Below are positions 3,513 through 44,387 of a stretch of 45,426 bases of DNA, one piece after another; the first letter of the stretch is position 1, and each line of letters starts with the position of its first letter. The notes below the pieces were generated by a model. That model worked only from the letters and a program-made list of their open reading frames with translations. It was not told where the DNA came from and ran no database searches. Origin of the DNA: Promethearchaeota archaeon (GTDB lineage: Archaea > Asgardarchaeota > Lokiarchaeia > Sigyniarchaeales > SOKP01); contig JAHLWH010000232.1 of the NCBI GenBank assembly GCA_019058015.1, positions 1 through 45,426 of the forward strand. Reading direction: 5' to 3'. A program made the translations under genes and the position numbers.

Positions 3513-3767
3513 AATTACCTAATTCTTTAATTATTTAAGGAAAATAATGTAATTTTGCGTTAAGCAGATTTATTTAATTTTATTACTTTTTTTAAAATAC
3601 ACAAGACATATATTTTAAAATTTTATTAATAATGAGTAGAAGTCCGTTTAAAATTTTTTAATGATTAAAAATAAATTATAAATAATAATTCTAACATTTT
3701 ATACTAATGAATATTTATTATGTTCTCAAAGGAATAAAATAATGAGTAATATTATAAAGGGTTAATC

Positions 3768-5933
3768 ATGTCTAAAGAACCATTAATGTTATTTGTTGAG
3801 GTTTTTGATTCAGATTCTGGAAAAGTAATAATTTCTAATGAGAATCTTGAAAAATTAAGTGTTAAGAATGGAGATATTGTTGAAGTTATAGATACGGATA
3901 CAAATAAAACTATATCAGCATTTATTGAGGGCTCTACAGAGGTTCTTGAATTTGCTGGTAAATTCTCTAAATTGATATGTGATAAATTGGGTTTTAAAGG
4001 AGTAGAATTAGGTATTCAAGTAAAATCTGATATTACCACATCTCTTGAGCTCACTCCATCTGGAAAAATTCCAGTTCAAGAAGCTCCACATGCTGAAATA
4101 AAACCCCCAAAAATTGAATTCGATATTGAACAGCAGCAAATAACAAAACCTCAAACACCCACTTATGCACCTCCAAAGCCACAAGCACCAACTCCTAGAA
4201 TTACTCCCCCACCTTCCCCACCTGGATTAACTCCAACCCCTCCACCGCCTTCACATCCATCACCAACCTATGCACCTCCAAAGCCGCAAATGCCAACACC
4301 TGGATTAACGCCCACACCACAACCACCTCAACTAGATCAATCAGGAATCCAACCAAGTGGATTACCCGAAACTGAAGTAACTCCCATGTACCCTAATCAA
4401 ATTGATGTATATACTCTGCAGACTCAAAAAAGTGGAATAATTTTAACACCAAAAATAATCGATGGTATGGAAGGAAGGATTCAACTAAGTGAAAATAATC
4501 TTAGAAAACTAGGATTAGGTGTAGGAATGTTAATTGCATGGGAAGATCCTTTAACACGATCTATAAGTTCAGCAAGAATTTCTATGGGTCTTAATGTTCC
4601 AGAAAATCAAATCATAATGGATCAAAATACAAAAGAAGATAGTAATATCCTCTCTGATCAAGTTGTAGTGTATTCTACTGAACCACCCATTCAGAAAATG
4701 GAGCAAATTTCCCTAGAAGTTAATTCAAAACCTGAACTTAATGGATTTTGTCAAGTCAGCCCTAGGATAATGCATTCACTATCTATGCAACCTGGTGTTA
4801 TCATTGCTTTTGAAGACGAATTAACTGGTGCTATTGGAGCCGCAAAAGTTCAAATTGATGAAAGAATGCCTTCCAATCAAATTATTATTGATAGTGAGAT
4901 ATTAGAAGCATCCGGAATCGGTAGTTATGAAGTTATTGTAAGGAAAAACCCAAGGCAAATTATAAATCTACAATCAATAAATTTAGGTATAAGCCCAATT
5001 AAAGGAGAAAATATGTGGGAACTTGTAAGTACAATACGTCAAAACGTTGAAGCTTTAAAAAATTGGCTTATGAATTATATAATATTTAAAGGAATTAAAT
5101 TACGATGGAATACAGCTAATATTGCATGTTCTGTAATTGATTGTATACCTGATTTAACGGGAGATATTTTTGCACAAATAACTCCAAATACTACACTAAG
5201 CTTGAGTCCAACGGGACTTATTCCGTTTAATGCTATATTAATTATTGACATTAGTAGAAGTATGATGGCGCGTGATGTGGAAATTAGAAATATTGCTCCT
5301 GCAATCGAAGGAATTAAGGCAGCTATGTATTCCCCCGAAATTCAAGAATTTCTGAAGAAATTTAAGGAAGGGATTTCAGTTCCACGTCGAATAGCAGCCG
5401 CTTTTGCAGCAGTTCTATTCTTAAGTGAGAAAGTTGGAAGAGGATTTGGAGAAAAAGTGAGTGTTATACGTTTTGCAGATGAATCTCAGGTATTACCCTT
5501 CCAAGGAGGGTTATATATGGACTCTGCCAGCGGAGAAAAGGGAATTCTTGAAGATTGCGCTCGAATGATTGTTGATAGAATTGGGAATGCTTATGGTCAA
5601 GCAACAAATATGGGTGCCGCTATGCTTGCAGGAAGGGAAGTTCTATATACTTTTGAACAAATAAATCCTGATCAGCCAACAATGATTGTACTTTTAACTG
5701 ATGGTGTCCCTACCGATGTAGATAATTTTCTTGAATCTATTAAACAATTCAGTGAAAATCCAAACGTTGTAATATATATCGTAGGATTGGGTAATCCTGA
5801 TGATAAACTAATGAATAGAGCTGCATCATTATGCGGCGGGGAGTATTTTAAACCGAATGATGCCGGAGAATTATTAATCTGGTACTCAAAAAGGGCAAGA
5901 GATCTAACGGTAAAACTTAAAGCTCACAAATAG
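3768..5933 (+). CDS. VWA-domain protein with repeated beta-barrel-like modules and a proline-rich linker
   Basis: Residues 1-90 form a small beta-rich module (FVEVFDSDSGKVIISNENL ... VKNGDIVEV) resembling double-psi-barrel/AbrB-like folds, such as Cdc48 N-domains. About 105-200 is a Pro/Thr-rich linker with repeated TYAPPKPQ units. Two more related modules follow (about 213-305 and 310-400; each has a GRIQLSENNLRKLGLG-like segment and ends in NQIIxD). The C-terminal third is a von Willebrand A domain with a full metal site: DISRS (D494, S496, S498), a Thr in QATNMGAAM and an Asp in LLTDGVPTD. There is no signal peptide, so it is cytosolic. The design suggests a metal-dependent protein-binding scaffold. 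Its link to the gelsolin and Roadblock genes is by position only. Confidence 0.75.
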   Translation: MSKEPLMLFVEVFDSDSGKVIISNENLEKLSVKNGDIVEVIDTDTNKTISAFIEGSTEVLEFAGKFSKLICDKLGFKGVELGIQVKSDITTSLELTPSGKIPVQEAPHAEIKPPKIEFDIEQQQITKPQTPTYAPPKPQAPTPRITPPPSPPGLTPTPPPPSHPSPTYAPPKPQMPTPGLTPTPQPPQLDQSGIQPSGLPETEVTPMYPNQIDVYTLQTQKSGIILTPKIIDGMEGRIQLSENNLRKLGLGVGMLIAWEDPLTRSISSARISMGLNVPENQIIMDQNTKEDSNILSDQVVVYSTEPPIQKMEQISLEVNSKPELNGFCQVSPRIMHSLSMQPGVIIAFEDELTGAIGAAKVQIDERMPSNQIIIDSEILEASGIGSYEVIVRKNPRQIINLQSINLGISPIKGENMWELVSTIRQNVEALKNWLMNYIIFKGIKLRWNTANIACSVIDCIPDLTGDIFAQITPNTTLSLSPTGLIPFNAILIIDISRSMMARDVEIRNIAPAIEGIKAAMYSPEIQEFLKKFKEGISVPRRIAAAFAAVLFLSEKVGRGFGEKVSVIRFADESQVLPFQGGLYMDSASGEKGILEDCARMIVDRIGNAYGQATNMGAAMLAGREVLYTFEQINPDQPTMIVLLTDGVPTDVDNFLESIKQFSENPNVVIYIVGLGNPDDKLMNRAASLCGGEYFKPNDAGELLIWYSKRARDLTVKLKAHK

Positions 5934-6101
5934 TAGATATAAATGAAATAACCATAATTAAGAAAATTTTAATTTTTTTCATTAATTCTTATGATTTTAC
6001 TTAAGTAATGGCATTCTTCTACTCTACTTATATTTAAAAAGGATCTATTAAGAATTTCGATAGATATATTTTAATATTTAAATGAAAATTTCCTAAAATT
6101 T

Positions 6102-7640
6102 TTAGACTTTTACTTTTCCTGCTTGTTCAATTACTTTGGTTGGTGATTGTTGAATCATTAAATCTTCATACATATTGTTTTCTTTTAATTGAAGGCTAAT
6201 TATATCTTCAGTAACTCCCATAGTACGAAGCATTTGGTAACCATTTCTTATTACTGCTTTAATGAATCGTGGGATTTGTGGAAGCATCCAATTGAATTTG
6301 GAAAAGGGATTACAATAACGTTTTGCTATCATTTTGAGCCAATCTCTGCCCATATAATAATCAGCATAAGCTTCTGCCACTAACCCATACATCTCGTGAT
6401 TGCTTAATTGTTCTGTTCTCATCATAGAATGGAAAAGATCATAGTACTTATAGTTATTAGTTGTAATCATATTTTTACTCTTCATCTCGTCGTAAAAGGG
6501 AGTGCCAGGAAAGGCGGTAATTGGTGTAAATTGTACAAAAGTCAAATTAAGCGATTTTGTGAATGAAATATTTTGACGGACCATTTTTTTGGTTTCACCT
6601 GGATAACCAATTATAACGCCTCCAAAAATAGAAATGCCATGATCTTGCAGCATTTTAACAACTTTTATTATCTTAACAGGTGTAGTATTTATTTTACCCA
6701 TAGCATCAAGGCTTTGTTGATGAACAGATTCAATGCCAAGAAATACTTGTCTCATACCTGCCTTTTGCATAAGATCAACTAACCATGGATTTCGGTAAAG
6801 TGTATCGACTCTTGATTGGCAGCTAAAATAAAAATTATTTGGAAGCCCCGTCTGGATAATAGTATCCAAAATTTTTTTGGTACGTTTAGCTTTAATAGTA
6901 AAATTATCTTCACAGAAAAAAATAAAATTATGACCCAAATTCACATCATAAATTTCTTGCATGATTCTTTTTAGGCTTTTAGTTCGATACGAGATATGGT
7001 GGATGGGATCTTTCCACATTTTAATGATACAACAAAATTTACACGAGTGGGGGCATCCTCTTGATGTTTCAAGTTGAGCCACTCTTGTACCTAAATAAAT
7101 ATACTTTTTCCATTTTAATAAATCTCTTCTGGGCATAGGAAAATTATCTAAGTTCGTTTCTAATCTGCGATCCTTATTATGAATAACTTTCCCATTATTA
7201 TTTTTATAGGAAACACCATCTATTTCTTTTAATGCTACGTGATTTGGGTTTCCATCAATATAATCAATTATTTCTTTAAAAGTATGCTCACCTTCACCCC
7301 GAATTGCATAGTCAACGGATTGATGTTTAGCTACATAATCCGGATCGAGTGTTGGATGATATCCGCCAATAATTGTTGAACAACCCTGTTCTTTGGCCAT
7401 TTGTGCAACCTCAAACGCGTGATCTATTTGGGGTGTCATACTTGTAATCGCAACAACATCATGACGGTTTAATTCACGCCGAAACCTTTTTTCTTTAAAT
7501 TTATCAATTTTGAAATCAAATAATTTTGCGTCATGTTCAGGTACCATAGCAGCGATTGAAATAAGACTCAGTGGGGCCCCTTTAATAATCGCATCAAGCC
7601 CAGACTCAAGTCGAGCTGGATTAACATATAAGATTTTCAT
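6102..7640 (-). CDS. B12-binding-type radical SAM enzyme
   Basis: The N-terminal ~140 residues form a cobalamin-binding-like Rossmann domain (MKILYVNPARLESG, VAITSMTPQIDHAFEVA, IIGGYHPTLDP, AIRGEGEHTF). The radical SAM core follows, with RGCPHSCKFC giving the CxxxCxxC cluster site near residues 196-203. The C-terminal ~100 residues are helical and may bind substrate. The order matches class B radical SAM enzymes, which often methylate or join unactivated carbons; some act on archaeal or hopanoid lipids. The substrate cannot be read from sequence. I prefer the ATG at 7640, three codons inside a possible TTG start at 7649, because MKILYVNP is the usual beginning of the first strand. Confidence 0.82.
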   Translation of the reverse strand: MKILYVNPARLESGLDAIIKGAPLSLISIAAMVPEHDAKLFDFKIDKFKEKRFRRELNRHDVVAITSMTPQIDHAFEVAQMAKEQGCSTIIGGYHPTLDPDYVAKHQSVDYAIRGEGEHTFKEIIDYIDGNPNHVALKEIDGVSYKNNNGKVIHNKDRRLETNLDNFPMPRRDLLKWKKYIYLGTRVAQLETSRGCPHSCKFCCIIKMWKDPIHHISYRTKSLKRIMQEIYDVNLGHNFIFFCEDNFTIKAKRTKKILDTIIQTGLPNNFYFSCQSRVDTLYRNPWLVDLMQKAGMRQVFLGIESVHQQSLDAMGKINTTPVKIIKVVKMLQDHGISIFGGVIIGYPGETKKMVRQNISFTKSLNLTFVQFTPITAFPGTPFYDEMKSKNMITTNNYKYYDLFHSMMRTEQLSNHEMYGLVAEAYADYYMGRDWLKMIAKRYCNPFSKFNWMLPQIPRFIKAVIRNGYQMLRTMGVTEDIISLQLKENNMYEDLMIQQSPTKVIEQAGKVKV

Positions 7641-7797
7641 ACTACTCAAAATATTATTTATTTGTTAAATCTACATAAAAATCAATTTACTTAGAACATA
7701 TTAGTTAAAAAAAGTATTTAAACTTGTCTGTTCTACATACCTATAGAAATAAAAATTAGAAAAAAAGGAAAAGAAAAGGTTTGTAAAGTTCTATTCT

Positions 7798-8976
7798 CTA
7801 AATTTCAACGTCATACTCTAATTGGTCGATAATTTCTATTAGATCTAAGATTTCAAACCCCATGTTAAATATTTCATTTGCATCACTTAAATTTGTTCTA
7901 CAAAATGGACATGTTGAAGATACAATTGATGCCCCAGTTTCTTTTGCTTCTTCTAATCTTTCCTGTGATATTTCAACAGACCAATCTGGGTATCCAATTT
8001 TAACACCTCCTCCAGCACCACAACACCATGCGTGATTCCGATTTCGCCTCATTTCTACAAAATTAATTCCAGGAATCTGTTTATATACATCTCTTGGGAT
8101 TTCATATATGCCAGAATGTCTGCCTAAATGACATGGATCGTGATAGGTCACAGTTTTATTGTAGTTTGATTTGAATTTTAATTTTCCTTTATCTAATAAT
8201 TCCTTAAGCAGTTCAGCAGTATGATATAGTTCAAAATCATAATTAACACCAAATTTTTCAAAATCATTCTTTAATGTTCGATAACACCCAGCACAGGAAG
8301 TAATTACCCTGAATGCACCCGCTTCTTTTATCTTTTCTATATTATAATTCATAAATTCTTTTGAAATCGAAATTTGACCCGTTCTTATCATGGGAGATGT
8401 ACAACAATGTTCATCGATTAGTGTAAAATCAATATTTGCCCTTTTGAGAAAGTTTAATGTTGCATCTCTTAAGGATTGTTGGCGATAATTTGAAGTGCAT
8501 CCAATATAATATACCCATTCTGCTTTATCGGGTAAATCATATTTTTTCTTTAGCTCTTCATTATCAGAATTTGGTTCATCATAAGGATTAAATTTTTTAA
8601 TAGCTCGCTCAATTAGTTTTTCTTGGTTTTGGGCTGGACCGATATGTTTAACTGCTAACTCTCTCAAGGCTTCTATCATATTAACAATATAATCTGCATG
8701 TGGTGCTTGACATGCATCCATGCAAGCTCCACAAGTAGGGCATGCAAAAATGGCATCCTTTAAATCATCGCTCCATTCTAAATCTCCATTTAATACTCCA
8801 CGTATAGTTCTTATCTTTCCAGATGCCCAAAACGATTCAAACAGGAATTTTTCACCAGAAGGACATGATGGTTCAAAAGTCTTATATCCATACTTACAAG
8901 TGCTACACTTGATACATCTTTCAAAAGCCATCTCTAAATATTCTTTTCCCATTAAACTATTATCTATTTCCACCAT
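7798..8976 (-). CDS. (Fe-S)-binding oxidoreductase, GlcF/HdrD type
   Basis: The N-terminus has two [4Fe-4S] ferredoxin motifs: C21xxC24xxC27 with C38, and CPTCGACMDAC (C79, C82, C85, C89). The C-terminal part carries two CCG-type domains: CCTSPMIRTG and CAGCYRTL, then HDPCHLGRHSG, WCCGAGGG and STCPFC. This is the architecture of glycolate oxidase GlcF and heterodisulfide reductase HdrD, which pass electrons between a flavoprotein and a quinone, thiol or other carrier. The gene begins immediately after the stop of the FAD oxidase gene (8977), so the two are surely co-translated and form one complex. No membrane segment is seen. Confidence 0.88.
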   Translation of the reverse strand: MVEIDNSLMGKEYLEMAFERCIKCSTCKYGYKTFEPSCPSGEKFLFESFWASGKIRTIRGVLNGDLEWSDDLKDAIFACPTCGACMDACQAPHADYIVNMIEALRELAVKHIGPAQNQEKLIERAIKKFNPYDEPNSDNEELKKKYDLPDKAEWVYYIGCTSNYRQQSLRDATLNFLKRANIDFTLIDEHCCTSPMIRTGQISISKEFMNYNIEKIKEAGAFRVITSCAGCYRTLKNDFEKFGVNYDFELYHTAELLKELLDKGKLKFKSNYNKTVTYHDPCHLGRHSGIYEIPRDVYKQIPGINFVEMRRNRNHAWCCGAGGGVKIGYPDWSVEISQERLEEAKETGASIVSSTCPFCRTNLSDANEIFNMGFEILDLIEIIDQLEYDVEI

Positions 8977-10452
8977 TTATGTATTCCACCTTCCAGGATT
9001 AAGAATTGCATTGGGGTCCATCATTTTTTTTACCTTCTCAAACAATTTTAGCCATCCAGGATTAATTTTTTTACGCATCTTTTCCGTCATCCAGGCAGGC
9101 GTTTTATAAGGGATACAACCCAATTCTAAACAAGTATCAATGATTTCTTCTAATAACTTATGAATTCTTTCCTCATCTTTAAATTTATCAAAGCGTATTA
9201 TTGGTCTAAATATGCAATAATGTGAATATTTCATACTTTTCATGTAAAGGTACAATGGAACATTATATTTTTTAAAAAGTTTATCTACTTTTTGTGATAA
9301 TTCTTCTATTTTATGAGAGGGAGCATAACTACCAAACCATGTTAAACCAGAATATTCAAATAAAGATAAAACCATTGATGGTAAATCAACTAAACTACGA
9401 AGTCTTAAGTTAAATAATTTTACAAATTCATCAAAATCTATTGAATATATTCTAATACCCTGTTGTTTAATTTTCTCAATTATGTTTAAATATATCTCCT
9501 TTTTTGCTTTATATTGATTCTCTGTATGAGCTGTTATTGTGGAAATCGACATCATTCTTGGCTCGCCCGGAAATGTTTTAGGTTCCGGAATTCCACAGCA
9601 CATTTTGACTATTTCAATGCTTCCAAGGGCAATATCATCAATAACCTCCGTCCTTCCAATTTCTCTACAAATTTCTCCTACATCCTTTAAGTTAAAAATT
9701 ATTAATGCTTCAAATTTTCGAATTGGTTTCTTTGGCCATAACTGAACTGCACATTTTGTTATTAATCCGGTCATCCCTTGCCAATTAACAAATAATCCCA
9801 TTAAATCGGGCATTGGATAACGACTCCACCAACTATCAGGGTCAGCTTCTTCCTTCCCATAAAAACATGAACCTATCCTTGCGATATCTCCATCAACTGT
9901 AATAACTTCTAAACCGTTAATAGAATCCCCCATTGATCCAATTTTACATGACATATTATTCATTCCGCTTAACATAGCATTTCCTACTACACCTGCATAG
10001 GGGGGTGCAAATGGATAATTATATCTAAGGTGGGGGAAGTTTTCATCTAAATGCTTTTTTAATTGTCCAAATGTCACTCCAGGTTCTAGTAAAGCATACA
10101 TCATATTTTCATTTATATGTAAAATTTTATTCATTTTTTTACCGAAATCTACGATAATTCCTCCCCGTTCCGGTATTGTGAGGCCTCCAACATTATTTCC
10201 AGAGATATAGGGAACGATAGGGATTACATTTTGATTACAATATTTAACTAATTCTACTAATTGTTCTTTATTTTCTGGGATTACAACAAAATCCGGCATA
10301 TTTGGAGCGCATTCGGTCATATCATAAGAATAAGGATATAAATCAACACTTTTACTTGATACATTCTCCTTTCCAAAAATTTCAACTAATTTTTGATAAA
10401 CTTCTTCTTTATTGACTTTTTCAAAAATATTTGTTTCTTTAGTGATTGTCAT
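8977..10452 (-). CDS. FAD-linked oxidase, GlcD/vanillyl-alcohol oxidase family
   Basis: Residues about 40-220 form the PCMH-type FAD-binding domain (PDFVVIPENKEQLVELV, PYISGNNVGGL, GGIIVDFGKKMNKIL, LEPGVTFGQLKKHL, GVVGNAMLSGMNNMS). The C-terminal cap ends with MDPNAILNPGRW, a signature of this family. The family oxidises 2-hydroxy acids, cresols or related substrates and hands electrons to an Fe-S partner, here the adjoining downstream gene. An SCP2-like gene lies 12 nt upstream. Substrate binding by the SCP2 protein suggests a hydrophobic or acyl-CoA-like substrate, but that is inference. The length of 491 residues is in the normal range. Confidence 0.87.
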   Translation of the reverse strand: MTITKETNIFEKVNKEEVYQKLVEIFGKENVSSKSVDLYPYSYDMTECAPNMPDFVVIPENKEQLVELVKYCNQNVIPIVPYISGNNVGGLTIPERGGIIVDFGKKMNKILHINENMMYALLEPGVTFGQLKKHLDENFPHLRYNYPFAPPYAGVVGNAMLSGMNNMSCKIGSMGDSINGLEVITVDGDIARIGSCFYGKEEADPDSWWSRYPMPDLMGLFVNWQGMTGLITKCAVQLWPKKPIRKFEALIIFNLKDVGEICREIGRTEVIDDIALGSIEIVKMCCGIPEPKTFPGEPRMMSISTITAHTENQYKAKKEIYLNIIEKIKQQGIRIYSIDFDEFVKLFNLRLRSLVDLPSMVLSLFEYSGLTWFGSYAPSHKIEELSQKVDKLFKKYNVPLYLYMKSMKYSHYCIFRPIIRFDKFKDEERIHKLLEEIIDTCLELGCIPYKTPAWMTEKMRKKINPGWLKLFEKVKKMMDPNAILNPGRWNT

Positions 10453-10464: not shown

Positions 10465-10887
10465 TTACCTGGTTTTCTTATTCAATTCAAAATAATTGGT
10501 ATTAGGTTCCGCTGCGACCATTTGCATAGAAACCATAAAAATATTGTAAAATTTAACCAAATTTGTACTATCGTTTCCTAATCCTTCCATCTCCATTAAA
10601 CCATTTTCCATACCAAAAATTGGATTTTCCCTACCGTAAGCGAAATCCAACATTGTTTGCAAGTTAAGCTTTACTTTCATATCAGCCTTATCGGATTTTC
10701 CCATCTCGAACTTTATCTCATTACCCTCAAAAATAACAGTTAATGGATAAAATGGTTCTATATGAATAACAACTTTCTTATTCCAGTTAGAGACAAGTTT
10801 AATGAATTCTTCTTCATTTTTTCTATAATTAAAAATGTTATACAAGGATATCGAAATTAAATCCTCGGGTTTTTGTATTGAAATCAT
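10465..10887 (-). CDS. SCP2 sterol-carrier-like protein
   Basis: A 140-residue protein with the SCP2 pattern: a strand pair (KKVVIHIEPFYPLTVIFEG), EIKFEMGKSDKADMKVKLNLQTMLDFAYG, then an apolar segment with NGLMEMEGLG and a final helix. SCP2 folds bind sterols, fatty acyl-CoAs or other lipids in a hydrophobic tunnel. It is the first gene of a tight minus-strand operon with the FAD oxidase and Fe-S reductase genes, so it probably presents or binds the substrate of that pair. It lacks a signal peptide. Family call is by pattern; no residue is diagnostic. Confidence 0.6.
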   Translation of the reverse strand: MISIQKPEDLISISLYNIFNYRKNEEEFIKLVSNWNKKVVIHIEPFYPLTVIFEGNEIKFEMGKSDKADMKVKLNLQTMLDFAYGRENPIFGMENGLMEMEGLGNDSTNLVKFYNIFMVSMQMVAAEPNTNYFELNKKTR

Positions 10888-10998: not shown

Positions 10999-11751
10999 TT
11001 GCAAGATCTAAGGAAAATAATTGAAGCTTTTGTGAATAATAATGAAAATTTTAAAATTTATGATGCTCCCCAAAATCTATTAGAATATTTGATAAGTGTG
11101 GGATTAGGTGTTAAACTGGACTCATTTAAAGAAATTATTTTGGAAGAGGAAACTCAGATTGAATTGGGTGGTATTAAAAACTATTCAACTTCCGTAATTT
11201 ATCCAATATCAGATAAAAACTGTATTCATGACGGTAATATTATTTTAATTGGCCCTGAGATACAGGAGATTCAAGAAAACAATATAGATTTTGGTCAAAT
11301 TATAATTATTGCAGGAGAAAATATATCAGAATCTCACTACACTGACTTCCAGAGATTGCAGTTTATTTCTGATAGTATTGAGGGGTTCATGATTCGCTCA
11401 ATTCCTCGAAGATTTTGGTGTAGAATAAGTAAAGATGCAATTAAGAAAGGTTTTTCATTTAATTTATTGGGAAATTCAATTATATATCTATTCAAAAAAC
11501 AATTTCCGGAGTTAATAGAAGCTGTAGAAATAATTTTTATAAGCGCTAATGAGCAAAATATCAAAAAATTTCAAGAAGTTATTTCAAAAATTAGAGAAAT
11601 ATATAAAAGAAATTGGGCTAAAAAAATTGAAGAATGGAAAGAACGTGTAGATTGTAATTATGATTGGATCTGTGATGTGTGTCCTTATAACGAAACATGT
11701 TATAATATTTCAGATATATATGTGCTAAGAAAAAATATTGAATTCGACTAA
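10999..11751 (+). CDS. CODH/ACS beta-subunit (CdhC)-like protein lacking the A-cluster domain
   Basis: The sequence follows the N-terminal domain of archaeal CdhC (domain 2 of bacterial ACS): QIELGGIKNYSTSVI, IILIGPEIQEI, FGQIIIIAGE, then EGFMIRSIPRRFWCRISKDA, LGNSIIYLFKKQFP and a helix IREIYKRNW. CdhC then continues with the A-cluster domain. Here it is replaced by a short tail with C219-x6-C225-x2-C228-x5-C234, a different spacing from the A-cluster cysteines. It therefore cannot be a normal acetyl-CoA synthase. A CooC-type ATPase follows 14 nt downstream, so a metal or cluster-handling role near CODH/ACS is likely. The start used is TTG at 10999; no nearby ATG fits. Confidence 0.72.
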   Translation: MQDLRKIIEAFVNNNENFKIYDAPQNLLEYLISVGLGVKLDSFKEIILEEETQIELGGIKNYSTSVIYPISDKNCIHDGNIILIGPEIQEIQENNIDFGQIIIIAGENISESHYTDFQRLQFISDSIEGFMIRSIPRRFWCRISKDAIKKGFSFNLLGNSIIYLFKKQFPELIEAVEIIFISANEQNIKKFQEVISKIREIYKRNWAKKIEEWKERVDCNYDWICDVCPYNETCYNISDIYVLRKNIEFD

Positions 11752-11765
11752 TTAAAAAAATTATT

Positions 11766-12548
11766 ATGAGCCAAAAAAAGCCTTATATTATAGCAGTTAT
11801 AGGAAAGGGTGGTTCAGGAAAATCAGTATTTTGCGCCATCTCAATAATGATAATTGCTAATATGAAAAGATTTAAATTATTTGCGGTTGATGCAGACCCA
11901 ACTCATTCTCATTTATCTGATCTTCTTGATGTGAAAATTGATAAAAGTTTAGAAGCAATCAGGAAGGAAATTATTAAAACTGCAGCACAAGGAAGGGAAT
12001 CTGGAAAAATAAAATTGGCAGAAGACATAGATTATTTAGTTTATAATGCAATCGTTGAAAATAAAGATTTCTCCTTATTAGCTGTAGGACTTCCCGAAGG
12101 TCCTGGATGTTTTTGTCCAGCAAATAGTTTACTGAAAAAAGTAATATCTTCAATATCTTTGGATTTTGATATAGTTCTAATTGATTGTGAAGCCGGTTTG
12201 GAGCAAATAAGTAGAGAAGTAATCAGCAATGTAGATACAATAATCATAATATCAGACATTTCAGTTAGGAGTATAGAAACAGCTAAAACCCTACTTCAAA
12301 ACTCTAAAAAATTTACAAAATATAAACATATCGGTATTGTCGTTAATAGAGTTCGAGGAGATATATCTTATCTAAGAAAAAAAATTAATGATATGAATAT
12401 ACCAATTTTTGGAGAAATCCCTGAAGATGATAATGTTATAAAATTAGATATTGAAGGTAAATCAATGAGAAATTTATCCTTTGATACATCAATATATAAA
12501 AGTATTGAAAAAATTATACAGAAAGTTTTAGATTTCATGTATCATTAA
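11766..12548 (+). CDS. cooC: CooC/AcsF-type nickel-insertion ATPase
   Basis: A MinD/SIMIBI-class P-loop ATPase with the deviant Walker A GKGGSGKS (13-20), switch segment FAVDADPTHSHL, a Walker B-like region IVLIDCEAG, and the base-binding VVNRVRGD. The CxC pair in GPGCFCPANSLL (C115, C117) is the signature of CooC, where the two cysteines at the dimer interface bind Ni/Zn. CooC matures the Ni-Fe-S cluster of carbon monoxide dehydrogenase; AcsF does so for acetyl-CoA synthase. It lies 14 nt after the CdhC-like gene. No complete CODH gene is in the window, so the client is elsewhere or is the CdhC-like protein. Confidence 0.85.
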   Translation: MSQKKPYIIAVIGKGGSGKSVFCAISIMIIANMKRFKLFAVDADPTHSHLSDLLDVKIDKSLEAIRKEIIKTAAQGRESGKIKLAEDIDYLVYNAIVENKDFSLLAVGLPEGPGCFCPANSLLKKVISSISLDFDIVLIDCEAGLEQISREVISNVDTIIIISDISVRSIETAKTLLQNSKKFTKYKHIGIVVNRVRGDISYLRKKINDMNIPIFGEIPEDDNVIKLDIEGKSMRNLSFDTSIYKSIEKIIQKVLDFMYH

Positions 12549-14137: not shown

Positions 14138-15121
14138 TCATTTTTTTAATGTGGTAATTGGGCGGCTTTGTAATATGTATATTTTATCATTTTCTATTGC
14201 CCATTCAATATCTTGAGGTAAATTGAATGCATTTTCAATTTTTAATCCTAAATTATGAAGTTGGCGAAGTTGTTTTTCGTTTATAGAGCAGACTGTCCTG
14301 GATTTGGAGTCTGTTTCTATCAAAATGGTATATGATCCTTTAGGATTTTTAATCGACTTTTTCTCTTTTTTACCGATAATCCTCTTTATAATTTCGAATT
14401 GATTTTTTTTAATTATAATAGTATCTGGGATTATTAAATCATCCGCAATAGTATTACCAAGCCCCCATGTGGAATTTATCAACATTTGGTTCGAATCATT
14501 ATTTATTACATTAGATGTAAAAAAAACTCCTGATATTTGTGAATTAACCATTTGTTGAACAATAACAGCCATATAAATATCAGACAATGAAATATTTAAT
14601 CCTTTTTTCCACATTTGAAGGAAGTAAAGCATTGATCGAGGTGAAAATAATGATAACCAGCAATTTTTTAAAGATGCTATAATATCATGAATATTAATGT
14701 TACATAAATAGGTATCAGCTTGTCCAGCAAAGGAGAATTTTTTGGAATCTTCGATTGTTGCTGAAGATCTAACTGCGAAAGAAATTTTACTCCCAATTTT
14801 TTTTTTAATTTTATCAAATGCTACTCTGATTTCATCGATTATTATTTTAGGAATTTTTGATTTCAGTATTAAATCTCTGATTTTTATTGAGTCTTGTAGA
14901 ATTTCTTTTAAATGAAAACGTTTTGATAATAATTTCATCAATTTATCGCTGTATTCAGATTCTTCAAGGAATTTTCTATAAGATTTTGTATTGATAATGA
15001 ATCCGGGAGGGACTATTACTCCTATTTCGATTAATTTGATTAAATTGGATCCTTTACCTCCCAATAAATCAGTATTAGGTGTTACTTCTGAAAAAAATAC
15101 AACGTATTCCGAAAGTTTCAT
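14138..15121 (-). CDS. Free-standing ATP-grasp domain of PEP synthase/dikinase type
   Basis: This is the nucleotide-binding part of PEP synthase, rifampin phosphotransferase and phenylphosphate synthase beta subunit, and nothing else. Motifs in order: LLGGKGSNL, VPPGFIINT, FAVRSSATIEDS, FSFAGQADTYL, MAVIVQQMV, SGVFFTSN, TWGLGNTIADDLIIPD and the closing IEWAIENDKIYILQSRPITT. It ends right after the QSRPIT motif, where full enzymes continue into the His domain and the pyruvate barrel; both are absent. In the family this domain binds ATP and transfers its beta-phosphate to a swivelling histidine. The two His-domain genes start 267 nt away on the opposite strand, so trans-acting phosphotransfer is the natural reading. 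Confidence 0.86.
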   Translation of the reverse strand: MKLSEYVVFFSEVTPNTDLLGGKGSNLIKLIEIGVIVPPGFIINTKSYRKFLEESEYSDKLMKLLSKRFHLKEILQDSIKIRDLILKSKIPKIIIDEIRVAFDKIKKKIGSKISFAVRSSATIEDSKKFSFAGQADTYLCNINIHDIIASLKNCWLSLFSPRSMLYFLQMWKKGLNISLSDIYMAVIVQQMVNSQISGVFFTSNVINNDSNQMLINSTWGLGNTIADDLIIPDTIIIKKNQFEIIKRIIGKKEKKSIKNPKGSYTILIETDSKSRTVCSINEKQLRQLHNLGLKIENAFNLPQDIEWAIENDKIYILQSRPITTLKK

Positions 15122-15388
15122 AGATATTCTTTGAAATTGTAATTAATAAAATATATTTAATTAAATATTAAAAATTTTTATCATTTTAAAATAACTCCTT
15201 TATTATTTTTATTTAATTTAATAAAAATAGCAAATACTACTTTCCTAATTTGTTAATTTTTTAATTTTTAAGATATCATAAAGCATATTTTTATTTGAAT
15301 CTTTTAAAAAATAAAGTTTTATTAAAGATTAAGAAAAATAATAAAATAATATTCATTCAAAATAATATTTTCAATATAGTTGATTTAG

Positions 15389-15745
15389 ATGAAAAAAATT
15401 GGGGAGGGATTATCTTGTTCATCCAATTCAGAAGTTACAGGAGAATTGGTGTATATTCAATCCGTTCAGGACGTTATAAATTTATTTGATGATGCCAATG
15501 GGAAAATATGCATAGTTGAGGATTCTGGTACTACTACTCTTGGTCCAATTTTATCAGAATTAGCCGGTGTATTGTGTCCAATAGGTTCTGTAGGCTCACA
15601 TCTTGCAATAGTTTCAAGAGAATTCGAAATACCTTGCATAATGAGTGTAGAATTTTTATTAGAAGATTTATCATCACTGAATAGAAAAAAGGGAAAAATT
15701 ATTACAGAAAGTGAAGCTAAGGGAATTATCTATTTACTTGAGTGA
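15389..15745 (+). CDS. Free-standing PEP-utilising-enzyme mobile (phosphohistidine) domain, copy A
   Basis: A 118-residue protein made only of the swivelling His domain of dikinases. It has TGELVYIQSVQDV (family: G-x-a-x-V), ICIVEDSGTT, ELAGVLCPIGSVGSHLAIVSRE and FEIPCIMS. The His in SHLAIVSRE (H71) aligns with the phosphorylated histidine of PEP synthase and rifampin phosphotransferase (TGG-x-x-S-H-x-A-I-x-A-R-E). The common TGG before it is replaced by CPIGSVG. It probably carries a phosphoryl group between the ATP-grasp protein (14138-15121) and an acceptor bound elsewhere. The start is set by the paralogue: both copies share TTGATTTARATG immediately before this codon. Confidence 0.85.
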   Translation: MKKIGEGLSCSSNSEVTGELVYIQSVQDVINLFDDANGKICIVEDSGTTTLGPILSELAGVLCPIGSVGSHLAIVSREFEIPCIMSVEFLLEDLSSLNRKKGKIITESEAKGIIYLLE

Positions 15746-15835
15746 TTTTTAATTTAAATCTAAAAATATTATTTTTAGAAAATGAGTTAATGTAGTTAAG
15801 ATCAAAAAATAAGAAGATTATAATGAGTGATTTAT

Positions 15836-17200
15836 ATGTTAGGTGATATTAGCGATGATGAAGCCAATGAACTAATCGCATTGTTTTCTAATAGTGTTAT
15901 AGAAAATTTTCTTAATCGAGGGATGGTAGAAAGTAAAGTATTTCCTGTAACGCATTACATTCACGTCGCCTGTTATATTTTATATGATCAATCTTATCAA
16001 TATAATATTTTAAAAAAAGTTGCAAGTAAGATATCTCCAGAGGACATCGCCAGAAGATCTAAATCCTTAGGCTCACGATTAAACCAGTTGTCTTTTTATT
16101 CTATATGCATGTTGTATTTACACGGTCGGGCTCAAGTTATTCATGATAATCTCACTAAAAAAAAGGTTGGCGAAACTAATATCGTTGTTGCGCCTGAAAC
16201 GAAGAAAAAAGAAACAAAATTCATTCTTGACTTTTGGAAAAGATTGAGTCCCAATTATCTCAATGATGGGCAGCTAACGGTGAAAAATAAAAAAATTAGA
16301 TGCCTTTCCGATGATTATATTAAAAAATTAAAAGATGATATGATCCCTATCAATAATAAAGAGATAACTAAGCGATTAAAACAAACAATCGCCCATTTGA
16401 CCATCTATAGTTTCCTTTCTCAAGCCGAGTGCCGATTGAGCATTTCTGAACAGGGACCATATTATTTTGAAGGCAACACTGAACCTTTAATATTCAAGGA
16501 ATTCCTGGATCTGCCTACTGGTGATGAAATATTTGGAATAGATATGTCTGGAAATATGCCATATAAAATCACCAAGATCGCACCAATTCCAAATGTAATA
16601 TTTGGAATGACGCTGAAAGATATGAAAAAAATCGAATTTAACGATTGGAGCACATTATTTGCCGATCCAGCTGAGTTTTCTTCAAACATAACATCAATAG
16701 GGATTTGGACAAGAGAATTAATGCATGAAAAAGATCTTAGGTATCCTGAAAATTTAGGTGATTTAAAACCCCTATCGCTTGATATCTTAGAGGAACTGTC
16801 TGAATTTGCAAAAAATGCCACGAAGGAATTATATATTGACATATCGAAATGGAGTTTTACTAAAAAATTGCTCTTCGGTACAAACCTTTATGCTAATTTA
16901 GTATCGGCTTTATGTACCCGTTATGCAGGATTAGAAGATGATTTTAACTGGACTTGGGCTTTTGATATTGCCGCAAATAAACCACTTAAGACTGACTCAA
17001 TAGATGAAAAAAGAATAAAGTTTTACATTGAAAAATTAGGCAAAAAAATAAAGACCAACCTAGATGAAAAAGAAGTAAAGAAATTGCATATTACAGCTTT
17101 AGAAAAATACCAAGGTGTACATCCTTTCCTTACACGAATATTTAGGCGTAGAAAACTCCAACAAATAGACCCGTTATATTATTATTTACAAGATGAATAG
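15836..17200 (+). CDS. Uncharacterised ~454-residue partner protein, copy A
   Basis: I do not recognise the family. The protein is soluble, with no signal peptide or membrane segments. The N-terminal ~130 residues look helical (DEANELIALFSNSVIENFL, HVACYILYDQSYQYNILKKV, RLNQLSFYSICMLYLHGRAQVIH). A charged linker follows, then FILDFWKRLSPNYLND, a beta-rich middle (SISEQGPYYFEGNTEPLIF, IFGMTLKDMKKIEFNDWSTL) and a Trp/Tyr-rich C-terminal part (FNWTWAFDIA). It always follows a His-domain gene, so it may be the acceptor-binding subunit of a split phosphotransferase. The start is ATG 15836, matching MLGDIS of copy B and preceded by GAGTGA; an in-frame GTG at 15827 is less likely. Confidence 0.8.
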   Translation: MLGDISDDEANELIALFSNSVIENFLNRGMVESKVFPVTHYIHVACYILYDQSYQYNILKKVASKISPEDIARRSKSLGSRLNQLSFYSICMLYLHGRAQVIHDNLTKKKVGETNIVVAPETKKKETKFILDFWKRLSPNYLNDGQLTVKNKKIRCLSDDYIKKLKDDMIPINNKEITKRLKQTIAHLTIYSFLSQAECRLSISEQGPYYFEGNTEPLIFKEFLDLPTGDEIFGIDMSGNMPYKITKIAPIPNVIFGMTLKDMKKIEFNDWSTLFADPAEFSSNITSIGIWTRELMHEKDLRYPENLGDLKPLSLDILEELSEFAKNATKELYIDISKWSFTKKLLFGTNLYANLVSALCTRYAGLEDDFNWTWAFDIAANKPLKTDSIDEKRIKFYIEKLGKKIKTNLDEKEVKKLHITALEKYQGVHPFLTRIFRRRKLQQIDPLYYYLQDE

Positions 17201-17288
17201 TCAATTGTAGATTTAATAAAAAAAGTAAAATATATTCATAAAATAATAAATTGATATTACTTTTAAATAATATTTTTAGTTGATTTAA

Positions 17289-17645
17289 ATGAAAAAAATT
17301 GAGGAAGGCGCTTCTTGTTCGTCCAATTCAGAAGTTTTAGGAGAATTTGTGTATATCCAATCCGTTGAAGACGTAATAAATTTATTTGATGATGCTAACG
17401 GGAAAATATGTATCGTAGATGATTCGGGTACTAATACTCTTGGTCCAATTTTATCAGATTTAGCAGGAGTATTGTGTCCACTCGGTTCTGCGGGCTCACA
17501 TCTAGCTATAGTTTCAAGAGAATTCGAAATACCTTGTATAATGAGTGTAAACTTTTTAATAGACGATTTGTCATCACTAAATAAGAAAAAGGGAAAAAAA
17601 GTTACGGAAAGTGAAGCCAAGGGTATTATTTATTTACTTGAGTAA
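17289..17645 (+). CDS. Free-standing PEP-utilising-enzyme mobile (phosphohistidine) domain, copy B
   Basis: Paralogue of the gene at 15389, also 118 residues, with the same active segment CPLGSAGSHLAIVSRE and H71 conserved. Differences cluster in exposed positions near both ends, for example EEGAS for GEGLS. The residues around the catalytic histidine and the FDDANGKICIV core are unchanged, which suggests that both copies are functional. The next gene starts 50 nt downstream. Confidence 0.85.
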   Translation: MKKIEEGASCSSNSEVLGEFVYIQSVEDVINLFDDANGKICIVDDSGTNTLGPILSDLAGVLCPLGSAGSHLAIVSREFEIPCIMSVNFLIDDLSSLNKKKGKKVTESEAKGIIYLLE

Positions 17646-17695
17646 TTAACAAAATTATTTTCAATTTAAATCTAAAATTATAAGGAGTTGTTTAT

Positions 17696-20336: not shown

Positions 20337-21623
20337 CTATAATAAAGTATTGGCAAACATCTTAATCTTATTTTTAATCATTTTTATAGATGTCATTCTC
20401 TGATCCCCAACATCAAGTTCTATAATAAGCATCGGGATTCCAACTTCATCTTTTAAGGCTTCTCTTAAAATTTGTGGAACCGAACCAAACTGCTTACAAC
20501 CTATATGAGAAGTATAAATAAAACAATCTGCACTAAAATCTTTTGCAAATTTTACACAATCATCGATAAAAGGATCAAAAAATTGAGTTGATTGTTTCAT
20601 CATTGGAAAATCCATTGTTCTTTTTGCCATTCCCTTAAATAGCGTATCTAAGCCTGATTTAGTATTTATCGGTTCCGTTAAATTATAATTAAAGATATCA
20701 AATAGAATTGACATACCAATTTCTCTCTCTAACCATTCACATATAGCAAAATCAAAAAAGATTAGCATGTAAGGCCAAATGCTTCTTATTTTTTCTTCTC
20801 CACCTGAATGTTCCCCGCGCTTATATCTTTTTTTTATGATTTCCAACATCTCAGTGTAAAAGGCAATATTTTCAGGTTTTCCAGCCATAAGAATGGTTGC
20901 TCCAGCAGAAAATGCATTAAAGAGGTTTTCTACGGGGCAGGGAATTGCTTTTTTTAATTCGAATATTTCCAATTGAATTTTTTGAACCTGATTTTCTATT
21001 TCTATATTTTTTTTCATTCTATTAAAATCAGGTTCCTGGTCAATAACCTTTCCTAATTCATATAATGTAAGTTTAAGTTGCTTACCATAATATTCATAAC
21101 TTTTTTCTTCGTGAAGAAAAGGGATATCAGAAAGAATTAATGGGATATTTTTATACTTAAAAAATGGGTAAGAAGCAACAGAATTATCGCATGGGCCTGT
21201 TGGACAAATAATAGCGTCAAATTTAAATAAATCATCTAGTGTCATAGCCATTACTCCTTTTTGACTACTACATGTATGATATGGATGTCCCCAATTGTTA
21301 ATTATATCATAATATTTTTCAGCACCTTCAGGTAAAAGTGCTGCAAGAAGATATGAAACTGCTTCTATACAAACAGGTACACAATCAAAGCAATAAAGAT
21401 ATTCCGATGGAAAAGCAAAATTATATCCAACTATTGGTAATCCTTCTCTAGCCTTTTCAATAGCTTCTGATAATACAGATTCAAAACATTTTGTACCTAT
21501 TTTAATTGAGGGTATTTCTTGTTCTGGTAATATTCTCTCAGTTAATTCACATGTAGTTGCAATAGTTTCTAATAACATTTTATAAGGGATTACTCGATCT
21601 TCCATTTTAGTCCTATCAATCAT
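20337..21623 (-). CDS. 2-hydroxyacyl-CoA dehydratase / benzoyl-CoA reductase-type subunit (HgdB/BcrB-like)
   Basis: A 428-residue member of the HgdB/BcrB/BcrC family, which holds a [4Fe-4S] cluster and performs radical dehydration of 2-hydroxyacyl-CoA or reduction of aromatic acyl-CoA. Seen: LPIVGYNFAFPSEYLYCFDCVPV, HPYHTCSSQKG (C118), PTGPCDN (C145) and SHIGCKQFGS near residue 385. The three Cys positions fit cluster ligands or active-site residues. It is 14 nt downstream of a close paralogue (21638-22900), so the two should form the usual heterodimer. No activator ATPase (HgdC/BcrA/D) is in the window. M1 has a GAGGT site 8 nt upstream, though homology to the paralogue starts at M7. Confidence 0.83.
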   Translation of the reverse strand: MIDRTKMEDRVIPYKMLLETIATTCELTERILPEQEIPSIKIGTKCFESVLSEAIEKAREGLPIVGYNFAFPSEYLYCFDCVPVCIEAVSYLLAALLPEGAEKYYDIINNWGHPYHTCSSQKGVMAMTLDDLFKFDAIICPTGPCDNSVASYPFFKYKNIPLILSDIPFLHEEKSYEYYGKQLKLTLYELGKVIDQEPDFNRMKKNIEIENQVQKIQLEIFELKKAIPCPVENLFNAFSAGATILMAGKPENIAFYTEMLEIIKKRYKRGEHSGGEEKIRSIWPYMLIFFDFAICEWLEREIGMSILFDIFNYNLTEPINTKSGLDTLFKGMAKRTMDFPMMKQSTQFFDPFIDDCVKFAKDFSADCFIYTSHIGCKQFGSVPQILREALKDEVGIPMLIIELDVGDQRMTSIKMIKNKIKMFANTLL

Positions 21624-21637: not shown

Positions 21638-22900
21638 TTATAATAATGTGTTTGTAAACATTCTAATCTTATCCTTCACAGTTTTAATAGAGGCAAAGCG
21701 CTTGTCACCTACATCTATATCTATAATTAATAGAGGGATACCTAATTCATCTCTTAAGGCTTCCCTAGGAAGTTGAGGAATAGACCCGAACTGCTTACAA
21801 CCTATGTGAGAAGTAAATATTCCGCAATCAGCTTTAAATTCTTTTGTAATATTTATAAATTCTGGAATGAAATCATCATAAAAATCAATAGATTGCTTAA
21901 TCATTGGAAAATTCATTGATTTTCGTGCCATATCATTAAACATTTTATCTTCCGAACTTGTATCTACAGGGTCATATAAATTGTAAGAAAAAATATCTAA
22001 TAAAACTGACATCTTAATTTCTCTATCCAACCATTCACATAAAGCTAAATCAAAGAATATGGTCATATAAGGCCAGATTGAACGAATCTGTTCTTCTATA
22101 GGACTTTCTTTTTTTTTATATCTTTTTTTTGCTAGAGCTAGCATATTTTCATAAAAATCTAATTTCTCTGGACGTCCTGCCATAAATACTGCAGCAGCAG
22201 CAGACATTGGGTTTATCATGCTCTCAAGTGGACAAGGAGTAGCTTTTTTTAATTCAAATAATTCAAATTCTAGTTTTAATGATTGATTTTCAATTTCTAA
22301 AGATTTCTTTATTTTATCGAAGTCTGGTTCTTGACCAATTATTTTGCCAATTTCACTTAATCCTATTTTGATTTGCTCAGCATAAAATTCATAACTTTTC
22401 TCTTCACGGATAAAGGGCATGTCTGTGATAACCAAAGGAATATCTTTATATTTAAAGAAAGGGTATGAAGCATATGTATTATCGCAGGGAGCAGTTGGAG
22501 TGGTTATTACATCAAATTTAAATAAATCATCCAATACCATGCCCATTACTCCCTTCTGGGAAGAGCATGTATGATAGGGGTGTCCCCAGTGAGTAATTAA
22601 GTCATAATATTTTTCTGAACCGTTAGGAAGTAATGCCGCCAATAAATATGATGTTCCTTCAATACAAATAGGAACACAGTCAAAACAATGTAAAAATTCT
22701 GCTGGACATGCAAAATGATAACCGATTATTGGCAATCCTTCTTCTGCTTTTTGAATATAGTCAATTAAACATTTTTCTAAATTTTTTAATCCCATTTTTA
22801 AAACTTGCATTTCATGTTCTGGAACAATTCTCCATACCAACTCATAGGAATTTGAAACAACTTCTAACAACATTTTATAAGGGATAATTTTTTCTTTCAT
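21638..22900 (-). CDS. 2-hydroxyacyl-CoA dehydratase / benzoyl-CoA reductase-type subunit, paralogue
   Basis: A 420-residue paralogue and operon partner of the gene at 20337. Shared blocks are IPYKMLLE, CFDCVPxCIE, SYLLAALLP, HPYHTCSSQKGVM, LDDLFKFD, SYPFFKYKDIPL, SHIGCKQFGS and LIIxDxDVGD. Cysteines C112 and C139 and the one in SHIGCKQFG are conserved. Two similar-sized subunits agree with HgdAB or BcrBC organisation. The pair could act on a hydroxyacyl-CoA in amino-acid fermentation, or on an aromatic or cyclic acyl-CoA. The sequence alone does not decide. First gene of the operon. Confidence 0.83.
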   Translation of the reverse strand: MKEKIIPYKMLLEVVSNSYELVWRIVPEHEMQVLKMGLKNLEKCLIDYIQKAEEGLPIIGYHFACPAEFLHCFDCVPICIEGTSYLLAALLPNGSEKYYDLITHWGHPYHTCSSQKGVMGMVLDDLFKFDVITTPTAPCDNTYASYPFFKYKDIPLVITDMPFIREEKSYEFYAEQIKIGLSEIGKIIGQEPDFDKIKKSLEIENQSLKLEFELFELKKATPCPLESMINPMSAAAAVFMAGRPEKLDFYENMLALAKKRYKKKESPIEEQIRSIWPYMTIFFDLALCEWLDREIKMSVLLDIFSYNLYDPVDTSSEDKMFNDMARKSMNFPMIKQSIDFYDDFIPEFINITKEFKADCGIFTSHIGCKQFGSIPQLPREALRDELGIPLLIIDIDVGDKRFASIKTVKDKIRMFTNTLL

Positions 22901-25561: not shown

Positions 25562-25652
25562 CTTATGTATATATTTAATATTAAAATATATAGAATATAT
25601 TAAATAAATGATTTCAGTAGATTTTAAATTACGAGAGAAAAAAAAAATTAAT

Positions 25653-25755
25653 TTAACTTAATTCCCACCGTCGATAAAGACTTGGTACACTTTCCAGTAA
25701 ATTTTTAGTGTATGGATGAGTTGGATGGAGGAAAACATCTTTCTTTAATTGCATT
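25653..25755 (-). pseudogene. Relict of an oppF C-terminus
   Basis: The minus-strand reading KDVFLHPTHPYTKNLL...SVPSLYRRWELS-stop closely matches the last ~33 residues of the intact OppF encoded at 30362-31162 (KDVFLNPTNPYTKNLL...SVPSLYRQWDLS), including the stop. No start or ATPase domain remains. It lies 92 nt upstream of the GH94 gene, on the same strand. Confidence 0.85.
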
Positions 25756-25808
25756 CAATTTCGCAAGTATATAATCTTTTTAACCATTAAAAGCTATCAT
25801 AATTACTT

Positions 25809-27098: not shown

Positions 27099-27109
27099 GG
27101 AGAGAATAA

Positions 27110-27153
27110 CTCACTTTTATCGGTGGGCATAATATATTATAGATAAAAATGAG
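27110..27153 (+). terminator. Hairpin after the MFS gene
   Basis: CTCACTTTTATC (27110-27121) and GATAAAAATGAG (27142-27153) form a 12-bp stem with one mismatch and a 20-nt loop, starting 12 nt after the MFS stop; T-rich DNA follows. It may stop or stabilise the transcript, though archaeal termination usually relies on T runs alone. Confidence 0.35.
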
Positions 27154-42753: not shown

Positions 42754-43902
42754 TTATTTTATCATTTCCAAGAAAGCTTCAATTCGAGTCTGCAATCGTG
42801 TTGTATCGGCTTGAACATATTCCCTATCAATATTCAATACTGGAATCTCTAATTCTTTTAGTTCATGCTCGAACAACATATTGTCACATCCATGAAGATC
42901 ACAATTATTTATTCTTTGGAGTATGACACCATCAATTTTTGCTGTTTTAATCTCATCCTTTAAAAATTTTAATCTTCGCTCATGATCATCCATCATGCGT
43001 GGACAGGAGATTCGTTGATACACACGTTTTGAAATTTGTTCTAAGGGATTACCTCCAATTTGTACATCATCTAAAAAATTGCGGGTTCCAAAACACAAAA
43101 AATCTGACACAATTAACGCTCCAGAATTCTCAATCAAATTAACAAACTTTAAATCATCTATAATGCTTCCAACTAACAGAATTCTTTTTCGGAGATCTTT
43201 TATCCCTTCACTTTCTTTTAATTTATAATTAATTCGATGTAATTCTTGATTAGTAATATCTTTAGGAACAGAACTATTTGCAACTGAAATCTGTAATGCT
43301 TCAGCACCAGAAAGTTTTGGGTTTTCTAAAATTCGCAGTCTATGAATCTCTCTTAATAGTCTACGATTTTCATTATGAACCTTAATTGAATTTTCAAGGC
43401 TATTATCAGTTATATCAATATTATAAGCTGTTTCTAATTCTTCCTTTAATTCTACAATTTCTTGCCAATACCAATTAAATCCTTCTTCTGATATAATATG
43501 GGGTACAGAAAAGTAAAATCTCGGAACTTTCTTTTTAAAGCCCTCTCGATTAAAAACTTTCATATTAAAAATTTCAAACATCCTGCGACTATGATCACAG
43601 CTGTTACATATAAGGTATCCATCAAGAAAATCAAAGCCACCTCGTAACGCTAAATCGAGTGATGCTCTTACAAAACTACAAGTAAATCTCACCATCAATA
43701 TATCTCCAAGTTCAGTTTTTTCATGTCCAGTCGCTCTTATTCTAAAAGGCAATAAATTAGCTGCATACAGTAATTCTTCAGGGATGTAAGTACAATAATA
43801 ACCAATAACTCTTTTTCTACTTGCTTGCCATTCTTTAATGTATTCATTATTAATCGAATTAGAAATATTCAGAAAGGGGTCATTTTGTAAACTCATCTTC
43901 AT
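42754..43902 (-). CDS. 2-hydroxyacyl-CoA dehydratase family protein (HgdB/BcrC-like)
   Basis: A 382-residue family member, more distant from the pair at 20337-22900. Seen: RVIGYYCTYIPEELLYAANLLPFRIRA, FTCSFVRASLDLAL, DGYLICNSCDHSRRMFEIF, NNCDLHGCDNMLFEHEL, LNIDREY and the closing TRIEAFLEMI. These are the classic HgdB blocks with three Cys cluster ligands. No second subunit or activator adjoins it. It overlaps the upstream SCP2-like gene by 4 nt (ATGA), so both are co-translated and probably act on one substrate, perhaps an acyl-CoA. Confidence 0.85.
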   Translation of the reverse strand: MKMSLQNDPFLNISNSINNEYIKEWQASRKRVIGYYCTYIPEELLYAANLLPFRIRATGHEKTELGDILMVRFTCSFVRASLDLALRGGFDFLDGYLICNSCDHSRRMFEIFNMKVFNREGFKKKVPRFYFSVPHIISEEGFNWYWQEIVELKEELETAYNIDITDNSLENSIKVHNENRRLLREIHRLRILENPKLSGAEALQISVANSSVPKDITNQELHRINYKLKESEGIKDLRKRILLVGSIIDDLKFVNLIENSGALIVSDFLCFGTRNFLDDVQIGGNPLEQISKRVYQRISCPRMMDDHERRLKFLKDEIKTAKIDGVILQRINNCDLHGCDNMLFEHELKELEIPVLNIDREYVQADTTRLQTRIEAFLEMIK

Positions 43903-44387
43903 TCACCTTTATCCTTGATTTTATACATTTCATGCTTACCAATTGCAATGCATCTTAATAGTTTTATAGTGGCTCCTAAAGAACCACTCATTTTAATTTT
44001 TCCGGTAATGATATACTTAAGAAAAAATCTTAATATTCCAAAAATATTATTTTTTGTTCGCACTATAGCACTTACTACACGAACTACTTCATCTCTTTTT
44101 ACATTTAAAGTCACGCACGAAATGGGGTTTATAGATCTCCCCATTCGCGGTTCAAAATTATCTTTATTTTTTACAAGTACAAAAGTTAGATAACCATTTA
44201 AGGAGGGAAAATAAAATTCAATTTCTTGTCCCTCTCTTTTACCAATTTTCTTAAAAGGTTCATTGAATCCATATATTTCAATTAAAAGTTTAGCTAACCT
44301 TGCAATATTGAGTAATTTAGTTTCATTTATTAAGTATTGGGCTTTTTTTTCCCGGCTTAAAGGTTGGGAATCATTTTTTTCAATCAT
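43899..44387 (-). CDS. SCP2-like lipid/acyl-CoA-binding protein
   Basis: A 162-residue protein with an N-terminal helical part (LINETKLLNIARLAKLLIEIYG) and an SCP2-like core: QEIEFYFPSLNGYLTFVLV, ISCVTLNVKRDEVVRVV, then ITGKIKMSGSLGATIKLLRC, which resembles the G-x-I-K-x-x-G-x-L end of SCP2 domains. The match is weaker than for the gene at 10465. Translational coupling to the HgdB-like gene repeats the association of an SCP2-like protein with a redox enzyme seen at 8-11 kb. Confidence 0.5.
   Translation of the reverse strand: MIEKNDSQPLSREKKAQYLINETKLLNIARLAKLLIEIYGFNEPFKKIGKREGQEIEFYFPSLNGYLTFVLVKNKDNFEPRMGRSINPISCVTLNVKRDEVVRVVSAIVRTKNNIFGILRFFLKYIITGKIKMSGSLGATIKLLRCIAIGKHEMYKIKDKGE

Follow-up and report, generated by a model that had tools for sequence, protein, structure and literature searches.

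The window analysed here (the whole 45,426-nt stretch of Promethearchaeota DNA) carries a gene, CdhC-short, whose product is a free-standing ACS/CdhC middle domain, with nothing left of the A-cluster domain except its first CxxC. The gene is paired with its own CooC-like ATPase gene, and the neighbouring genes suggest that CdhC-short is directed to an ATP-driven benzoyl-CoA-reductase-like enzyme, not to the ancestral carbon-fixing enzyme. We rate as evenly balanced the chances that CdhC-short and CooC form an accessory module maturing or activating a BCR/HAD-type enzyme, with a client, a contact and a direction of transfer that we infer. The features concerned are listed in Table 1.

Table 1. 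Features of the CdhC-short locus and its surroundings in the window
Feature	Position	Strand	Support
CdhC-short (250 aa), free-standing ACS/CdhC middle domain + cysteine tail	10999..11751	+	Pfam CdhC 4.4e-20; own clade 100/99
CdhC/ACS middle-domain homology, residues 45-185	11131..11553	+	approximately Moorella ACS residues 313-490
Cysteine tail C219-x5-C225-x2-C228-x5-C234, putative [4Fe-4S] site	11653..11700	+	family alignment
CooC-like P-loop ATPase (260 aa), 14 nt 3' of CdhC-short	11766..12548	+	3kje CooC E=1.3e-15; linked in 44/54 loci
CxC (C115-F-C117), putative metal site of CooC	12108..12116	+	C-F-C in 46/46 aligned orthologues
SCP2-like small protein, divergent neighbour	10465..10887	-	Pfam SCP2 7e-5, above cut-off; 21/54 loci
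GlcD-like FAD-linked oxidoreductase	8977..10452	-	Pfam FAD_binding_4 1.6e-25; 34/54 loci
GlcF/TfrB-like Fe-S (CCG) subunit	7798..8976	-	Pfam CCG 6.8e-35, NCBIfam TfrB 1.3e-65; 36/54 loci
HGD-D protein, 'a' type copy 2	20337..21623	-	Pfam HGD-D 5.9e-45
HGD-D protein, 'a' type (query of presence/absence test)	21638..22900	-	Pfam HGD-D 1.1e-43
HGD-D protein, 'b' type, nearest double-cubane reductase/BzdN	42754..43902	-	Pfam 1.5e-86
162-aa companion of HGD-D 'b', no Pfam match	43899..44387	-	recurs beside HGD-D in 8 loci

The CdhC-short ORF starts with TTG, and the likeness of its product to CdhC lies far beyond chance. Residues 45-185 passed the cut-off of Pfam CdhC (E=4.4e-20) and residues 45-228 matched the NCBIfam cdhC models at about 1e-21, with scores far under the full-length cut-offs of the NCBIfam CdhC/AcsB models. 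All significant PDB matches were to ACS (1e-14), and the profile-profile comparison with CdhC/ACS gave 99.6% (E=6e-24), so that the profile alignment proposed as a check in the initial annotation upheld its description of a 250-residue protein that keeps a CdhC domain without the A-cluster. The stretch covered by the family profile corresponds to the middle domain of Moorella ACS (approximately residues 313-490), and none of the Pfam, NCBIfam, PDB or profile-profile matches reached farther into the A-cluster domain than its very beginning. The protein ends at residue 250. What it shares with CdhC/AcsB is the middle domain and the first A-cluster CxxC, whereas the rest of the A-cluster domain, the C-G-C nickel ligands and the catalytic C-terminal domain are absent and the cysteines are re-spaced as C-x2-C-x5-C. 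In the joint alignment, R-x-I-P stands where full CdhC has the nearly invariant ACS signature H-x-N-Q-R, and a retained ACS-type CoA site is weak and doubtful as a candidate. An AlphaFold2 model built from four sequences had a pLDDT of 37. NCBI annotates short CdhC-domain proteins as 'carbon monoxide dehydrogenase beta subunit family protein', and there may be bacterial proteins among them.

In the cysteine tail, C-x2-C-x5-C was kept in all 54 aligned copies and the full C-x5-C-x2-C-x5-C in 50 of them. The four copies from a second Asgard family (f22) lack the first cysteine, keep C-x2-C-x5-C and have a cysteine near the C-terminus; C219 is also absent from the copy in G240, an archaeon outside Asgard. 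This pattern makes it likely that the tail binds a small Fe-S cluster. The initial annotation was right that a cysteine tail is present, but its first spacer is five residues, not six, and the tail is not simply a replacement of the A-cluster domain. The first CxxC ligand pair of the A-cluster, invariant in 34/34 full CdhC proteins, is matched by C225 and C228 in the profile alignment as well as in the joint one. The tail is thus a truncated and remodelled beginning of the A-cluster domain and not a wholly foreign addition. Over the tail, the weak profile matches to exonuclease V/Exo5 (E=0.6) and to a Cas-associated phage family (E=0.07) can be traced to the C-x2-C-x5-C pattern, which is familiar from Cas4-type [4Fe-4S] sites. 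This spacing is common to the C-terminal Fe-S motif of Cas4 and exonuclease V, but CdhC-short has no nuclease domain, and the likeness is due to chance or convergence.

CdhC-short was counted from match tables in 61 of 228 Asgard genomes, in Lokiarchaeia and the f22 family, and its matches (E<1e-37) were clearly apart from those of full CdhC (weaker than 1e-26). A phylogeny built from the region common to both forms separated 51 short from 34 full proteins on one branch with support of 100/99. The host genome (3.84 Mb, 94% complete) has, on another contig (C100), an intact 464-aa CdhC that retains every A-cluster cysteine, C-G-C included, and adjoins a 176-aa protein that looks like an epsilon subunit. 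A full A-cluster encoded nearby by frameshift had been named in the initial annotation as a finding that would refute its claim; a frameshifted or split A-cluster was rejected, as no A-cluster coding was found between the CdhC-short and CooC ORFs and many genomes share the short form. That CdhC-short is a decaying or mis-assembled cdhC gene without function has a negligible probability. It is indeed a truncated paralogue, but it forms its own clade with a long independent history, invariant residues and C-x2-C-x5-C in every aligned copy, and it recurs across the Asgard genomes and in one other archaeon, a degree of conservation by which decay is already refuted.

No relatives of CdhC-short were found in the viral contigs searched, and the plasmid search returned only a 26% match at an unannotated place in an Acetoanaerobium chromosome record. 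Other archaeal phyla were searched at a threshold of 1e-27, at which short forms of greater divergence will have been missed. Our literature search found nothing on truncated CdhC/AcsB. Further CdhC paralogues occur in a Loki-class genome, G054 (L072, 6231-7586, and L071): one, of 451 aa, keeps the A-cluster Fe4S4 cysteines but not the C-G-C nickel motif, and the other, of 403 aa, has C-H-C. These paralogues possibly have altered A-clusters.

The closest solved relative of the CooC-like protein is C. hydrogenoformans CooC (CooC1; 3kje, E=1.3e-15), and its Pfam matches are CbiA and Fer4_NifH. Of 45 orthologues spanning the deviant Walker A motif of the MinD/NifH class, 44 have GKGGxGK; the exception differs at the second-last glycine, and one further copy is truncated at the N-terminus. 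The CooC with a CxC site placed 14 nt after CdhC-short in the initial annotation was therefore confirmed. The genomes checked each encode another 2-4 CooC-like proteins of more distant relationship, indicating that the CdhC-short-linked CooC is a distinct type. CooC is known to couple ATP hydrolysis to nickel delivery to CODH (PMC6006190). The CdhC-short-linked protein shares GKGGxGK and CxC with the CooC/AcsF maturation ATPases, but its gene sits with CdhC-short and HGD-D/BcrAD genes, not with CODH or ACS genes.

Neighbour families in 54 CdhC-short loci were assigned by clustering. The survey of the pair in other genomes, also suggested in the initial annotation, found CooC in 44 of these loci, GlcF-like proteins in 36, GlcD-like proteins in 34, SCP2-like proteins in 21, each of two HGD-D types in 16 and a BcrA/D-type ATPase in 10; CdhC-short and GlcDF were divergently arranged in approximately 20. 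Most loci without CooC were explained by a contig end (L038, L041, L043 and L105), by a CooC orthologue farther off (6-8 kb in L104 and in L036, there beside a BcrA/D-like ATPase) or by what looks like a second copy. Apparent second CdhC-short copies without CooC lie near HGD-D in L108, L112 and L113, as would be expected if CooC were a shared maturase. HGD-D was found less than 15 kb from CdhC-short in 7 of 10 genomes, against approximately 0.4 expected (P=1.3e-8), and the test with the one least-favourable genome per genus gave P=5.6e-5. The nearest HGD-D in G016 is 65 kb away, and several Loki loci have GlcD/GlcF and no HGD-D close by.

The linkage of the module extends over two archaeal phyla. 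In f22, a single strand carries HGD-D b, two HGD-D a genes, two ATPase genes and CdhC-short in a row that fits into 6.4 kb, and CooC lies 1.3 kb upstream; in L037 the ATPase, CdhC-short and CooC genes are adjacent. The 1.3-Mb genome of G240 encodes a 234-aa CdhC-short with the tail motif DCERCDYREIC in a compact seven-gene operon (L146, 7925-13768) of HGD-D, a 111-aa protein, HGD-D, two BcrA/D ATPases, CdhC-short and CooC. No other single observation speaks as strongly to the function of CdhC-short.

Elsewhere in L146, we observed an anaerobic ribonucleotide reductase with two apparent intein-like inserts (3596-7873) and a RuBisCO-like gene (15039-16337). URO-D/MtaA-like methyltransferase genes lie beside CdhC-short loci in two distant lineages (L104, 135-1175; L055, 4253-5404).

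Co-occurrence was assessed by Fisher tests in genomes of the same family with a completeness of 90% or more. Of the genomes with CdhC-short, 17 of 18 had the HGD-D 'a' orthologue, versus 3 of 8 without (p=0.0045), and the presence of full CdhC was not associated with that of CdhC-short (p=1.0); the genomes are related, so both p values are optimistic. G008, G139 and G151 have an HGD-D orthologue and no CdhC-short, which is therefore not strictly required.

These patterns bear on the role at CODH/ACS that the initial annotation had proposed. It is now unlikely that CdhC-short stands in for CdhC by docking on CODH or CoFeSP and serves there as a cluster chaperone or sensor. In favour of such a role, CdhC-short is homologous to the CdhC/ACS middle domain, which has been modelled to contact CoFeSP in bacterial CODH-ACS (PMC12289521), and its partner is a CooC. 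However, no CODH/ACS gene was recognised beside CdhC-short in the 54 loci read, full CdhC was not found in several CdhC-short genomes, for example, G013 (100% complete) and G144 (single contig), and a tight HGD-D and BcrAD operon exists outside Asgard. The idea that CdhC-short occurs without CODH was not supported, as a Prismane/CODH-family protein was present in all 12 CdhC-short genomes tested (10 full, of approximately 740-800 aa, and one 466-aa fragment), and the link to CODH is thus weakened rather than severed. Of the earlier proposal, a shortened ACS relative acting as an accessory factor survives as a conserved, CooC-paired family that is plausibly an adaptor or chaperone; its assignment to CODH/ACS, at odds with the loci and with the tracking of HGD-D instead of full CdhC, is not supported. 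Pfam CdhC matches in Asgard genomes alone do not prove a Wood-Ljungdahl pathway. One of the oldest enzymes of carbon fixation appears to have supplied a domain for reuse outside CODH/ACS.

BCR/HAD enzymes carry [4Fe-4S] and [8Fe-9S] double-cubane clusters and are driven by ATP-dependent activators (PMC11971306). The corresponding gene set, HGD-D subunits and a BadF/BadG/BcrA/BcrD ATPase, is present at CdhC-short loci outside the window. HGD-D with one or two BcrA/D-type ATPases is likewise the arrangement of the BCR, 2-hydroxyacyl-CoA dehydratase and double-cubane family (BcrCBAD, BzdNOPQ, HadBC-HadI and DCCP), but the neighbours of CdhC-short score under the NCBIfam equivalog cut-offs. In the accessory module, which would comprise HGD-D proteins and BcrA/D-type ATPases and, in Lokiarchaea, often also GlcD/GlcF and an SCP2-like protein, CooC is likely a dedicated MinD/CooC-type ATPase acting on or via CdhC-short, by analogy with CooC on CODH and AcsF on ACS. 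A metal or cluster would be bound at the CxC site of CooC, ATP hydrolysis would load this cargo onto the CdhC-short tail or release it there, and CdhC-short would dock on the HGD-D enzyme and help install or reductively activate its cluster. More tentatively, the pair may be a dedicated assembly or activation machine for an unusual Fe-S cofactor, a double-cubane or heterometal variant, of a BCR/HAD-type enzyme, built from a recruited ACS middle domain and a nickel-insertion ATPase. We know of no maturation factor that serves benzoyl-CoA reductases, 2-hydroxyacyl-CoA dehydratases or double-cubane proteins in the assembly of their clusters, and the conserved pair of CooC and an ACS fragment in HGD-D operons is a concrete candidate for one. 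We know of no CooC or CdhC-like gene in these three kinds of system, and our literature search found none tied to BCR-type systems. As far as we know, 2-hydroxyacyl-CoA dehydratases work without such a partner, which counts against maturation.

The main rival to maturation, which we hold to be rather improbable, is that CdhC-short is a working Fe-S subunit, perhaps binding CoA thioesters, that transfers electrons from GlcD/GlcF or ferredoxin to HGD-D/BcrAD, with CooC maturing only CdhC-short itself. It would account for the conserved cysteine tail and for the pairing of CdhC-short with HGD-D/GlcDF sets also at loci that lack CooC (those with apparent second copies). The domain derives from a CoA-using enzyme, and the neighbouring enzymes likewise use CoA thioesters. 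Nevertheless, the exchange of H-x-N-Q-R for R-x-I-P makes a kept CoA site doubtful, and the BcrA/D-type ATPases already provide electron activation. A redox or metal sensor, in which the Fe-S tail and CooC gate the expression or activity of neighbouring oxidoreductases, is very unlikely: the divergent arrangement with GlcDF and a conserved but non-catalytic cysteine site would fit it, whereas CdhC-short has no DNA-binding or signalling domain and is co-directional within the operons of f22 and G240.

For the neighbouring BCR/HAD-type proteins, the best NCBIfam models were double_cubane, BzdN and BzdQ, all matched under their curated cut-offs (for HGD-D 'b' of the window, 204 bits on double_cubane against a cut-off of 350). 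None of the HGD-D genes within the window was seen to adjoin a BcrA/D-type ATPase gene. Approximately 19 kb of carbohydrate-use genes (23186-41941) separate HGD-D 'a' from HGD-D 'b'; named by eye, they include two glycoside-phosphorylase-like proteins, a GH2-like enzyme, a GH130-like protein and an oligosaccharide/peptide ABC transporter. The HGD-D genes are contiguous in G001, a genome of the same genus (L145, 8968-11892), and the carbohydrate stretch therefore looks like an insertion or rearrangement. Additionally, a two-gene unit encoding a 118-aa PEP-utiliser-like swivelling domain and a 455-457-aa protein with no Pfam match is duplicated in tandem at 15389-19063.
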